Shown in pieces: positions 18,751 through 34,857 of a stretch of 34,857 nt of DNA. Each line of letters opens with the position of its first letter. The first letter of the stretch is position 1. The position numbers and the translations under genes are program-made. The notes under the pieces were generated by a model. It saw only the letters and a program-made list of their open reading frames with translations. It made no database searches and had not been told where the DNA came from. This DNA is from a virus, in the IMG/VR virus record IMGVR_UViG_3300002835_000588, positions 1-34,857 of that record; one strand, written 5' to 3'.

Positions 18751-19707
18751 ATGGCACTTATTCTCAGAGGCGACAACTATTGGATGGACGTCCAGATCAA
18801 TGGCAAGCGTTTGCGTGAATCACTCAAGACCGGCGACAAGAAGCTGGCCCAGCAGCTGCACGACATGCGCAAGGCTGAGCTCTGGCGCGAGGGGGTCTTG
18901 AAGGAGAAGCCCAAGAAGACATTCAAGGAGGCCTGCGCACGTTGGTTGGTCGAGCGCGCACATAAGCGTTCACTGCCTGATGACGAGCTCAAGATCAAGT
19001 TTCTCCTCCCAAAGATAGGCACTGTGCTGCTGTCTGAGCTCACTCGAGACAAGATCGAGAGCGTGCTGCCCAAGGAGGTTGCAGGCGCCACCAGGAACCG
19101 CTACCGCGCCCTGATTCGGGCCATGCTGCGTGCTGCTGAGCGTGAGTGGGACTGGCTTGACCGCGCTCCTATCCTCAGAACAGAGGCAGAACCAAAGCGC
19201 CGCGTCGCATATCTGACACGCGAGCAGGCCGAGGTTTTGATCGCTTGTCTCCCGGAAAAGTATCGGATGCCAGTCCGTTTCGCTTTACTCACCGGGTTGA
19301 GAAGATCGAATGTTTTTGGCTTGACCTGGGAGGCTGTGGACCTGGACAACAGCATGGTGCATGTGGCCGCGGAAGACGCCAAAGCTGGCCAGCGCATCTT
19401 GGTCCCGCTCAACAAGTCGGCCAAGGCACTGCTGGAATCCTTCCCTGAGCCCCGCAAAGGGCGCGTGTGGGGCGATATGGACCGCGTCTGGGCCAACACC
19501 TGGACAGGCGCCTGCAAGCGCGCTGGCGTGCCTGGCTTTCGCTTCCATGATCTGCGCCACACCTGGGCGTCCTGGCACGCGATGGCCGGCACTCCCCTGT
19601 CGGTGCTCCAGGAGCTGGGTGGCTGGCATTCCCATGAGATGGTGCAGCGCTACGCCCACCTGTCGCCAGAGCACCTGGCGAATGCGGCTGAGCGCGTTAA
19701 CTTCTGA
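18751..19707 (+). CDS. int: Tyrosine recombinase / integrase
   Basis: 318 residues from the ATG at 18751, preceded by AAGGAG. It has an N-terminal arm-binding-like beta segment, a SAM-like core-binding domain (about 55-140) and a catalytic domain with Arg184 (LLTGLRRSN), Lys211, HDLRH with His266 and Arg269, His293 (GGWHS) and the nucleophile Tyr301 (VQRYAHL). It ends 6 bases from a tRNA-His gene and 163 bases from a tRNA-His 3' fragment, the expected int-attP arrangement. It inserts the phage into the 3' end of the host tRNA-His gene. No excisionase is recognised. Confidence 0.95.
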   Translation: MALILRGDNYWMDVQINGKRLRESLKTGDKKLAQQLHDMRKAELWREGVLKEKPKKTFKEACARWLVERAHKRSLPDDELKIKFLLPKIGTVLLSELTRDKIESVLPKEVAGATRNRYRALIRAMLRAAEREWDWLDRAPILRTEAEPKRRVAYLTREQAEVLIACLPEKYRMPVRFALLTGLRRSNVFGLTWEAVDLDNSMVHVAAEDAKAGQRILVPLNKSAKALLESFPEPRKGRVWGDMDRVWANTWTGACKRAGVPGFRFHDLRHTWASWHAMAGTPLSVLQELGGWHSHEMVQRYAHLSPEHLANAAERVNF

Positions 19708-19713
19708 GGGGGC

Positions 19714-19790
19714 TGGGGTGGCCGATGGGACTCGAACCCACGACCGCTGGAATCACAATCCAGAGCTCTACCAGCTGAGCTACGGCCACC
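19714..19790 (-). tRNA. tRNA-His (GTG), complete, CCA encoded
   Basis: The minus strand folds into a full cloverleaf. The acceptor stem GTGGCCG/CGGCCAC carries the extra 5' G typical of tRNA-His opposite C73, and an encoded CCA follows. The D arm is GCTC/GAGC, the anticodon stem CTGGA/TCCAG has loop TTGTGAT with anticodon GTG, and the T loop is TTCGAAT. All stems are intact, so it should be functional. It is convergent with int. It differs from the nearby attP fragment at several positions, so it is not simply a duplicate of that core. Confidence 0.92.
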
Positions 19791-19808
19791 ACTGCTTTGA
19801 ATCTACGA

Positions 19809-19823
19809 CACAAAAATGTCACA
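19809..19823. repeat. 15-bp direct repeat, left (candidate integrase arm site)
   Basis: CACAAAAATGTCACA is repeated exactly at 19992-20006. The two copies lie on either side of the tRNA-His fragment that forms the att core, 47 bases and 72 bases away. Paired direct repeats flanking an att core beside int are typical of arm-type integrase binding sites. That role is inferred. Confidence 0.6.
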
Positions 19824-19870
19824 ACAACTCAAAAATCAAAACAGAGAAACGCCGAAAGCCTTGATTCTAT

Positions 19871-19919
19871 TGGGGTGGCTGATGGGGCTCGAACCCACGA
19901 CAACAGGAATCACAATCTG
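19871..19919 (-). other. attP: attP core: 3' fragment of a tRNA-His gene
   Basis: 49 bases match the 3' two thirds of a tRNA-His gene on the minus strand: GATTGTGATTCC around the anticodon, the T arm GTGGGTTCGAGCCCCAT, and CAGCCACCCCA including CCA. The upstream half of the tRNA is missing. This is the standard form of an attP that rebuilds the host tRNA gene upon integration. The sequence looks like betaproteobacterial tRNA-His, the main basis for the host guess. Confidence 0.85.
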
Positions 19920-19927
19920 AAAATAGC

Positions 19928-19952
19928 AAAAAAAGCCCCCAGTTACGGGGGC
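19928..19952 (-). terminator. Terminator of the late/lysis transcript (possibly bidirectional)
   Basis: GCCCCC (19935-19940) pairs with GGGGGC (19947-19952) across a 6-base loop. On the minus strand the stem is followed by seven T residues (19934-19928). It lies 55 bases beyond the endolysin stop and inside the attP region, ending the long minus-strand transcript before it reaches the att core and integrase. Confidence 0.85.
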
Positions 19953-19991
19953 AAAGGTGCAGATGGCAACTGCTCTGTCACAAACTAATGG

Positions 19992-20006
19992 CACAAAAAT
20001 GTCACA
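19992..20006. repeat. 15-bp direct repeat, right (candidate integrase arm site)
   Basis: This is an exact second copy of CACAAAAATGTCACA (19809-19823), next to the endolysin stop. Together the two copies bracket the att core and the terminator. The rest of the 300-base gap 19708-20007 holds only the tRNA, the core, the terminator and these repeats. I see no gene in it. Confidence 0.6.
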
Positions 20007-20007
20007 T

Positions 20008-20535
20008 TTATTCTTCCTCGGTTTCCATCGAGCTGAGGAACAAGGCCTTCTCAGCCTTGCGCCGTTTGACCAGGCCCGGCAATTCTTTGCCGCCTCCCCT
20101 AGTCCACTGCATAAAAGCCTCCGCGGCGCCCTCCCAGTCCTGGCGCCCGATCTTCATCCGAATAGTGGAACGCTGAAAGTTTCCCAGCCCGGCATTGAAC
20201 GCAAAGCTGGTACACGCGTCGAAAGCGCCTTGATTGCCAAGTAGATTGGGAGCAAGTCGTAAAACGCCACGCTCAAAACTAGCGACGTCACTTGCGAATA
20301 GCGCATCGATCTCCTGTTGACTCCAAACACGGTTGTCCTCCGGTCTCAGTGGGTATTCCTTGCGGATCACGGGGCTGTGGATCTCCTTCACCCGCATGAT
20401 TGGCAGTCTGATCTGCTCCTGGTAGAGCACATGCCCCCAGCCGATCGTCCAGATGTGCGCGGGGCATAGGTAGGGCCGGTTTCTGCAGCCCTCGTACTGG
20501 TGCATGAGATCTGCACCGGCCTTGCTCAACTTCAC
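20008..20535 (-). CDS. Endolysin, T4/P22-type lysozyme (GH24)
   Basis: 175 residues. The catalytic triad spacing of GH24 lysozymes is present: Glu15, Cys24 in the place often held by Asp or Cys, and Thr30 within CPAHIWTIGWGH. A CTSFAFNAGLGNFQRST segment and a basic LPGLVKRRKAEKALF end complete the family pattern. It cleaves peptidoglycan glycan strands. No signal or SAR helix is visible, so release should depend on the holin encoded upstream, whose stop overlaps this start. The acidic MSxETEEE-like tail is unremarkable. Confidence 0.88.
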   Translation of the reverse strand: MKLSKAGADLMHQYEGCRNRPYLCPAHIWTIGWGHVLYQEQIRLPIMRVKEIHSPVIRKEYPLRPEDNRVWSQQEIDALFASDVASFERGVLRLAPNLLGNQGAFDACTSFAFNAGLGNFQRSTIRMKIGRQDWEGAAEAFMQWTRGGGKELPGLVKRRKAEKALFLSSMETEEE

Positions 20536-32429: not shown

Positions 32430-33632
32430 TTAGAACTCCAAACTTCCCCAAGTTTCATCAAACACAGACTTTCCGCCGCCAGTCGTGCCAGTTCCAAGGG
32501 ATTGCTGTTGGTTCAACCATTCGTTGTAAGCCTGCAGCTCGGCGTCATCTAAAAGCTCTGGGTAGTCAAAGGTTTGCGATAGGCTGCCCTTGTCATCCAA
32601 AGAGATGTCGCCATTGACTACCTCAAGGGTGACGTTTGGAACTTTTGGTTTTGTCAAGTCTGACAGTTGATCAGCGGTAAATGCCGACCCTGTCATGTTT
32701 GACGCGGCGCTGTCGGCGAGGAGGGCTGCAGAGTTGTCAATCGATGCAGAGCCACCCATAGCAGCCTCAATAGCGTCACGCAAGTCACCTGCTCCACCTG
32801 TAGTGCCAGTGTCTTCAGTTGTCTCGTCTGTGCCCGTGGTGTCAGTGCCGCCTAAGCCATCTAAGCCGCCCAATCCGTCGCCGCCTAAACCGTCACCACC
32901 CAAACCATCACCGCCTAGACCGTCGCCACCCGCTCCGCTGTCACCAGCCCCGCTTGTTCCATCTCCGCCAGTTTCGCCAACAACGGTGTCGTTGCCTGTT
33001 CCACCATCGATGGTGTCGTTTCCTGTGCCGCCATCTACGGTGTCCACAACCACTACGTCTTCAGCGACCACGTCGTCGTCAACGATTACATCGTCAACAA
33101 TTACGTCTTCATCAATGATGTCGTCATCCACAACGTCATCTTCTACAACATCATCCTCAACGATGTCGTCCTCGACGACGTCATCTTCGACAATGTCGTC
33201 CTCCACGACGTCGTCTTCAACAATGTCGTCTTCAACAATGTCGTCCTCAACGATGTCGTCAAACACTAGGTCATCAAACACAAAATCATCAGGCCTGACA
33301 TAAGGCATGTCTGTCTCGCCGCCAGGCAAAATGACTTCTGGCGCCACATACCCTTGCATGCTCAACACGCCTGGGTTGTTTGCGCCGCGATAAGTGCGGG
33401 GTTTGAAATTAAGAGCAGCGCCGTTGGCGCCGTTGGCGTATCGAGTGAAGCCAGGATTTCCTGGGCCAGGAATGCTGCGCAGCGCGGAAATCAAATCGGA
33501 GCGACGCACGTCAGGCGTGGCAAATTGAGCTGCTGAACCCTGTTGCGGCAACAAGAAGCTCAACTCTGGCGCTGATGCAATCAGCTGTAGCGTTTCATCT
33601 GGTAGCCCGTAGTTGTCTTGCTTTACTGCCAT
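32430..33632 (-). CDS. Acidic repeat protein with DDIVE repeats and RTX-like motif
   Basis: 400 residues from the ATG at 33632, which overlaps the gp10-like stop as TGATG with GGAG 7 bases upstream. Residues 1-118 look globular (RSDLISALRSIPGPGNPGF). Residues 120-196 are a run of 5-residue repeats of the form DDIVE/DDVVE degenerating to VIVDD. Residues 201-225 hold GGTGNDTIDGGTGNDTVV, the RTX calcium-binding nonapeptide pattern. Residues 236-262 are GGDGL repeats. A helical end follows. The negative charge is extreme. It sits in the connector/ejection region, so it is likely virion-associated. A calcium-stabilised fibre, a DNA-mimic or a spacer are possible roles. No enzyme motif is seen. Confidence 0.7.
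   Translation of the reverse strand: MAVKQDNYGLPDETLQLIASAPELSFLLPQQGSAAQFATPDVRRSDLISALRSIPGPGNPGFTRYANGANGAALNFKPRTYRGANNPGVLSMQGYVAPEVILPGGETDMPYVRPDDFVFDDLVFDDIVEDDIVEDDIVEDDVVEDDIVEDDVVEDDIVEDDVVEDDVVDDDIIDEDVIVDDVIVDDDVVAEDVVVVDTVDGGTGNDTIDGGTGNDTVVGETGGDGTSGAGDSGAGGDGLGGDGLGGDGLGGDGLGGLDGLGGTDTTGTDETTEDTGTTGGAGDLRDAIEAAMGGSASIDNSAALLADSAASNMTGSAFTADQLSDLTKPKVPNVTLEVVNGDISLDDKGSLSQTFDYPELLDDAELQAYNEWLNQQQSLGTGTTGGGKSVFDETWGSLEF
33045..33275. repeat. 15-bp tandem repeat tract encoding DDIVE units
   Basis: About fifteen degenerate 15-base units (consensus on the plus strand TCGTCCTCNACNATG) run through the middle of the acidic protein gene. The copies keep the reading frame and vary mainly at third positions. 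Such tracts can change length by slippage in whole 5-residue steps. Confidence 0.8.
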
Positions 33633-34857
33633 CACATCACTCCACCAAGTTCAGTCATCACGTTGCATGAAGTGAAGACAGTTTGTGGCAGGCCACGCAC
33701 CTTCATGCGCAGCGAGCCGTAATACCCAAGGCCAGTCGTGCCGGCCCAACCCTGATAGGTGTTTGTTCCCACCCAGGTCGATGTGTTCCAGATTCCCTCA
33801 TCCCACACAGCGCCATCGCCCTGCGTAAAGTATGGAGAGCCACCCACAGGGGTGATCTGAAACTGCGTGTTCATTTGCAGCTTGATCGCTGGCGCAGCCG
33901 TCGAGATAAACGTCGGGCGCACCATGCCAAACTTCTTGAGCTGCGCAGGCGTGTTGAATGCCTGAAAAGACGTCTGCACGTCTCCCTCGACATAGTTGCC
34001 GCCGTCGCCGTTAACGTCCGCGCCATCTTTGTCGCCTGTCAGACCTTCGCAAACGTAGCCGTCAACCGTTCCAAACAGCAGACGGCCACCGATGATGCCG
34101 GCGCATCGCATGGGGATGCCGACAAACTGACACCAGGCGCCTGTGATCACGTTCATTGCAAACTGGCGATACGTTCCACCGTCAGCCGGCAGCTTGATCA
34201 CCATCACGTCGGAAGACGGCACGACAAACACGTCGAAATACTTTTCGTTCAGCAGCTTGCGAACCAAAGGCGCAAAGACCGACTGGATCTTGGACGCGGG
34301 GCCGATCTGCTGATCTTCTGTGTACTGGCCATTGACCAGCTTGGACATGGGGACCAGGCCCAGCTCGGAGACGATCATCACGTCACCGCCAAAGGGCGTA
34401 AAGAACGTTCCATGACGGGGAACTGGGCCGACGTACCAGACACCCTTCAGGCTGAAGGTATCGACGCTGGTTGGGTCAGTGCCCTGCCACACGCCAATGT
34501 CGCCTTCTGTGCCGACAACGATCAGGAAGTCGTCGATTGAGAAACCAGCATCCATCGTCCAGTTAATCAGCGCGGAGACATAGCCGCCGTTGCGCAAAGA
34601 TGAACCCATTGCAAATGATGTGCAGGCGCCTGTCACGACATCCACAGCGTCCAGGTAGTAGACGTTGGAGTCACCTTCAGCGGTGAACCAAACGCGCTGC
34701 TTCCACACGGCCACAGTGCGCACGGTTGTGGGCAAGCCGGTGGTTGTCGCTGTGCGATCGACCCAGCCGCTTGTGGTGCTGTAGGTCCAGTACCCGGCGC
34801 CAGGAGAGACGGCCAACAGGAAAGTGTCGGCAGGCGTAGAAAACTGAGTAGTCCACC
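33632..34857 (-). CDS. P22 gp10-like / tail-stabilisation protein, 3' part
   Basis: This is the continuation of the frame that starts at 621 and crosses the circle junction (34606/1). The part from 34606 to the stop at 33632 adds 324 residues, for a total of 531. Bases 34607-34857 repeat 1-251. The sequence is beta-rich with many Gly, Trp and Phe (SALINWTMDAGFSIDDFLIV, HGTFFTPFGGDVMIVSELG, RRLLFGTVDGYV-like blades), compatible with the propeller-like fold of P22 gp10 or T7 gp12. The stop overlaps the acidic repeat gene as TGATG. Only the 5' portion at 1-621 carries the true start. Confidence 0.7.
   Translation of the reverse strand, partial: WTTQFSTPADTFLLAVSPGAGYWTYSTTSGWVDRTATTTGLPTTVRTVAVWKQRVWFTAEGDSNVYYLDAVDVVTGACTSFAMGSSLRNGGYVSALINWTMDAGFSIDDFLIVVGTEGDIGVWQGTDPTSVDTFSLKGVWYVGPVPRHGTFFTPFGGDVMIVSELGLVPMSKLVNGQYTEDQQIGPASKIQSVFAPLVRKLLNEKYFDVFVVPSSDVMVIKLPADGGTYRQFAMNVITGAWCQFVGIPMRCAGIIGGRLLFGTVDGYVCEGLTGDKDGADVNGDGGNYVEGDVQTSFQAFNTPAQLKKFGMVRPTFISTAAPAIKLQMNTQFQITPVGGSPYFTQGDGAVWDEGIWNTSTWVGTNTYQGWAGTTGLGYYGSLRMKVRGLPQTVFTSCNVMTELGGVM
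34607..34857. repeat. Terminal direct repeat, right copy
   Basis: These bases are identical over 251 positions to 1-251. Removing one copy closes the genome at 34,606 bp and restores a single uninterrupted gene. Confidence 0.95.

Follow-up and report, generated by a model that had tools for sequence, protein, structure and literature searches.

The attachment site described here raises the question of why a temperate phage whose attP holds a tRNA-His 3' half, apparently able to rebuild the host gene, should also carry a complete tRNA-His gene of its own. The answer that we consider probable is a lambda/P22-type attP accompanied by a spare tRNA-His gene that would protect an essential host gene, with this phage as an intermediate. 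The window, i.e., the whole stretch of DNA analysed (34,857 nt), terminates in an exact 251-bp copy of its first bases (from position 34606 to the end); on account of this terminal repeat, we take the window to be a complete and circular phage genome of ~34.6 kb with no prophage edge. Family searches (PHROG, Pfam) identified an integrase, a terminase, a portal, a major head protein, a lysozyme and a repressor-like protein, and the window therefore represents a temperate tailed phage. Its structural region also includes an ORF (32430-33635, minus strand) with a long acidic repeat of the VEDD/VVEDD type.

Anatomy of the attachment site

The integrase gene (int, 18751-19707, plus strand) stands beside the attP, as in canonical tRNA-gene attachment sites, and encodes a lambda/P22-like tyrosine integrase (PHROG phrog_1 integrase, E 1.7e-65; Pfam PF00589) that shares ~41% identity with integrases of P22-type phages. 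The int stop is followed, six bases on and ahead of the left arm, by a complete tRNA-His(GTG) gene (19714-19789, minus strand), which was called by ARAGORN, has phage DNA on both sides and is referred to here as the spare. The earlier note on this DNA did not include the spare, which changes the meaning of the site. It had proposed an arm-core-arm attP in which a tRNA-His fragment lies next to int; this anatomy is well supported by relatives, but the fragment itself does not adjoin int, because the spare and the left 15-mer stand between them.

The 15-mer CACAAAAATGTCACA, proposed previously as an arm-site candidate, is indeed present in two exact copies, at 19809-19823 and 19992-20006, and an exact direct repeat of 15 nt was reached in 0/2000 dinucleotide shuffles of 19790-20006 (shuffle maximum, 13). 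Each copy represents a pair of GKCACA-type sites that are 11 bp, or one helical turn, apart. The left arm (19807-19823) contains the first copy, with arm-type sites at 19807 (GACACA) and 19818 (GTCACA), 11 bp apart; the right arm (19977-20006) contains the second copy, with three arm-type sites at 19977, 19990 and 20001. Arm-type sequences are thus found on both sides of the core, as expected for a canonical attP. The terminator claimed for the minus strand was also recovered, at 19952-19935 (folding z -3.15); it would act as an intrinsic terminator between the core and the late genes, which include a lysozyme (endolysin) gene reading towards attP (20008-20535, minus strand; PF00959, E 6e-34).

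The tRNA-His 3' fragment, confirmed at 19871-19917 (minus strand), includes a 46-nt 3' half (19871-19916) that matches 31/32 reference positions. Together with 19714-19760 of the spare, positions 19871-19917 form 47-nt direct repeats that are 89% identical and both contain the core, so the spare could act as attB for a second phage or take part in a core-core deletion. The anticodon loop of the half (19909-19915, ATCACAA on the plus strand) is the putative 7-bp overlap for strand exchange. While the loop was found in 29/29 tRNA-His-core loci because it served as the search anchor, tRNA similarity in each isotype starts, by eye, at this 7-nt loop, and 21 tRNA-His loci retain nothing beyond the loop and a few bases around it; together, these observations point to a crossover within the loop. 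Consistent with this, the relevant part of a review states that the anticodon loop and stem match the lambda overlap and core sites (PMC8371274).

To assess rebuilding in silico, the 5' halves of 17 different host tRNA-His sequences were joined to the phage 3' side. All 17 hybrids were called tRNA-His for the window, L002-L006 and L027, and 16/17 for L013, while 0/17 were called for each of the 21 loci that retain only the core; the window thus has the host-rebuilding 3' part of a canonical attP. Its half forms 5/5 anticodon-stem pairs only with a CAGGA-type host, and the host tRNA that this predicts, with CCAGGA as 5' stem joined to the window half, is present without mismatch in 31/399 Burkholderiales genomes, suggesting that the window would rebuild such a host tRNA exactly.

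Arm sites were compared in the 45 loci whose core could be recognised. In these, GKCACR sites lie near +68, +81 and +92 from the anticodon loop, and those on the int side mostly near -102/-91, -80/-69 or -123/-112. The proximal left site was therefore mostly near -69, -91 or -112, in classes ~21-22 bp (about two helical turns) apart. At least one left arm site was found in 44/45 loci (the exception being L027) and right sites in 45/45, and a terminator-like hairpin is present on the late-gene side in 33/45. The 16/45 loci with a tRNA-Cys, -Asn or -Ser core keep the spacing of arms to core, indicating that the arm sites follow the integrase rather than the tRNA; the repeats predicted to recur in relatives do so at a fixed distance from the core, even where the core is of another isotype.

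The 45 loci exclude L024 and L025, in which the core is unrecognisable, L098, L099, L100, L102 and L103, in which the att arrangement is of another kind, and L107-L109, which are 44% identical; L028, with an int truncated at the end of its contig, and L111-L153 were outside the analysis, and eight duplicate-contig loci were dropped. By eye, L098-L100, L102 and L103 appear to carry a tRNA-Ser(GGA) 5' half and arm sites of opposite orientation within ~0.5 kb after int, an arrangement in which the 5' part, and perhaps a promoter, would come from the phage. L024 and L025 have a probable other gene close after int and no recognisable tRNA core or arm pair, and their attP may have been lost or may lie in another place. 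Several relatives (L011, L013, L015, L017-L019, L022, L023, L026 and L106) apparently have an additional short reading frame between int and attP.

Spare gene and 3' half among related phages

The 29 tRNA-His-core loci, comprising the window, 17/27 loci of one relative set and 11 loci of a second set, were found in three states. The half alone is present in 4/29 (L004, L006, L013 and L027), the half and a complete tRNA-His gene in 4/29 (the window, L002, L003 and L005), and a complete tRNA-His gene without the half in 21/29. Loci with neither were found in 0/29, although such cores would be hard to recognise. The distinction is sharp, as identity of the half is bimodal (31-32/32 in 8/29 loci and 6-11/32 in 21/29). 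A complete tRNA-His gene is present in 25/25 loci of the both-part and core-only states, in 0/4 loci with the half alone and in 0/16 loci with Cys, Asn or Ser cores. For the half-alone state, the records of L004, L013 and L027 each have one match to the window attP region, so no separate tRNA-His was found there, and the record of L006 is only 4.6 kb long. A Fisher test (p 0.003) ignores relatedness and is given no weight here. The co-occurrence counts are not independent, since the core-only loci fall in three clades.

This distribution bears on the possibility that the complete tRNA-His is ordinary phage cargo, serving lytic translation or acting against tRNA-cutting defences, whose place is incidental. 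tRNA-His is carried by many large phages in the GenBank set, as such an explanation would have it. In 25/25 loci, however, no other tRNA was called in the 1 kb that follows int, and the gene agrees in isotype with the att site and sits in a single orientation between int and the left arm; moreover, it is absent from 16/16 relatives with other isotypes and missing from 0/21 loci without the half, and the terminator would exclude late transcription from it. Cargo is thus an unlikely explanation of the gene.

Slightly less likely still is that the complete tRNA is a neutral relic of faulty excision or recombination and that the window uses its 3' half alone, in the canonical manner. The half does rebuild the tRNA by itself in silico, and short repeats of the int end flank the spare, as judged by eye. 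By comparison, the spare is identical in the window and in three phages whose int genes differ from it at 25-31/951 bases, and among 8 distinct phage tRNA-His sequences all 21 cloverleaf pairs are formed in 100% of cases, and both members differ in 4 of the pairs; such covariation was absent from four of six slid controls and limited to one pair in the other two. These compensatory changes across the family argue that the spare has been kept functional. Finally, the reading of the earlier note as a canonical attP with nothing unusual, though every element that it named exists, is almost certainly wrong, as it is contradicted by the ARAGORN call and takes no account of the complete tRNA-His gene or of the 21 relatives without the half.

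In the preferred reading, of a lambda/P22-type attP with a protective spare, the core is the anticodon loop of tRNA-His, and the integrase would bend the arm sites onto the core and recombine it with the host tRNA-His gene by strand exchange within the 7-bp loop. The 46-nt half would then complete the host gene at the left junction. Integration would place the spare 81 nt downstream of the rebuilt gene and in the same orientation, where transcription from the host tRNA promoter would reach it, while in the free phage the terminator would keep late transcription out. A promoter-like site upstream of the phage tRNA exceeding shuffles was found in none of the 15 loci tested, while 10-of-12 promoter matches are present upstream of two host tRNA-Pro-Arg-His clusters. 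This hints that the spare may lack a promoter of its own and, along with the terminator on the late-gene side, suggests that it could be read from the host promoter after integration. The spare would make insertion into an essential tRNA gene safe, and in the 21 core-only relatives, whose 3' half is gone, it would be the sole source of tRNA-His, a situation known as tRNA-dependent lysogeny. While the anatomy, the arm spacing, the rebuilding or its failure in silico and the co-occurrence can be read from the sequences, integration, the crossover point, expression of the spare and rescue of the host are predictions from them.

The 29 tRNA-His loci form a single group in the integrase tree (92/93). 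The core-only loci fall in three clades, to one of which L013, with the half alone, is sister (96/89), and L004 and L006, also with the half alone, are sisters by int DNA (94/99). Two of the three states occur within one group of near-identical integrases, and the window's group shows that half and spare can coexist. For L004 and L006, loss of the spare fits as well as gain in the window's group, and the trees do not decide between repeated gain and repeated loss, so that any order of events is inferred. Tentatively, and with somewhat less than even confidence, the window may be an intermediate in the origin of tRNA-dependent lysogeny, in which a cognate tRNA was gained while attP still rebuilt the host gene; the half would then have eroded, in as many as three lineages within a single integrase family, with the arm spacing reset by two helical turns, and the spare would be driven by a captured host tRNA promoter, so that it works only in the lysogen.

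Host site and search for prophages

The host tRNA-His gene was previously proposed as the exact integration site. The relatives support it well as the target, but the claim of exactness found no support, as no prophage with a close integrase was found in the genomes searched. In 399 Burkholderiales genomes, an order that may not be that of the host, tRNA-His had a single match in 328/343 genomes with a match, at most two candidates being scored per genome. The same sample gave integrase matches in 58 genomes at 1e-50, the best being 50% identical. Cellular integrases of 43-50% identity adjoin various tRNA genes in 27/30 loci and tRNA-His in none; G269 has one int-tRNA-His pair, with an int that is 41% identical. 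Searches by family at E 1e-88 found a close integrase in 0/26, 0/83, 0/5, 0/187 and 0/43 genomes, a scan of genome contigs for the window integrase gave 3 distant matches, and plasmid and GenBank phage records contained only integrases below 60% identity. A search of viral contigs for attL junctions yielded 29 pattern matches, which proved to be 28 ordinary tRNA-His genes and one cut by a contig end, with no core-only junction among them.

Second tRNA-His 3' halves starting near the loop were found in G015 (C1, 935341 and 967362), G060 (C1, 1825581 and 1854809) and G402 (C1, 67131 and 68552), at 32, 29 and 1.4 kb from the complete gene, respectively. These halves mark other elements that integrated near the tRNA-His anticodon loop, as canonical elements would.

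Relation to known systems

Experiments on mycobacteriophages demonstrated tRNA-dependent lysogeny in 2024 (PMC10865867); the authors describe how it is related in evolution to ordinary tRNA integration as "not clear" and name several possible routes. According to that work, actinobacteriophages such as Fionnbharth and Gaia share a tyrosine integrase, an attB in an essential tRNA gene and a phage tRNA of the same isotype, and among related phages some rebuild the tRNA and others bring a copy of their own, as in the window family; in Gaia, the phage tRNA is also downstream of int. The actinobacteriophages have a core of 8-17 bp and do not rebuild the tRNA, whereas the window also retains a half with which to rebuild it. 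In Fionnbharth, the phage tRNA is served by a promoter of its own, whereas none was seen for the spare. Table 2 of that paper includes no tRNA-His and marks no phage with both rebuilding and a phage tRNA. Since its 46-nt half still rebuilds the tRNA, the window does not have the short, non-rebuilding core of tRNA-dependent lysogeny and is not a strict member of this class. By comparison, the 21 core-only relatives have a short core that leaves the host tRNA unrebuilt (0/17 hybrids each) and a phage tRNA of the same isotype (21/21), and thus look like cases of tRNA-dependent lysogeny.

Replacement of a host tRNA has also been reported for S. meliloti prophages similar to Mesorhizobium phage vB_MloP_Lo5R7ANS, where the tRNA is tRNA-Leu(UAG) and not tRNA-His (PMC11476347, PMC12429752); the portions of these papers that describe the prophages mention no state with both parts. 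Burkholderia phage Magia resembles the window, as far as the site is concerned, in having a tRNA-His 3' half beside its integrase, but differs in that the search matched no complete tRNA-His in its record. Among open-licence papers, no report was found of a phage that combines a cognate tRNA with a half capable of rebuilding the host gene, and the tRNA-His case and the half-plus-spare state therefore appear to be new. If the core-only relatives are as they look, tRNA-dependent lysogeny would extend to tRNA-His and to phages whose hosts are apparently proteobacteria. The presence of half-only, half-plus-spare and spare-only phages in one family makes the evolutionary question directly testable, and an attP with a spare, as in the window, may show how tRNA-dependent lysogeny evolves.
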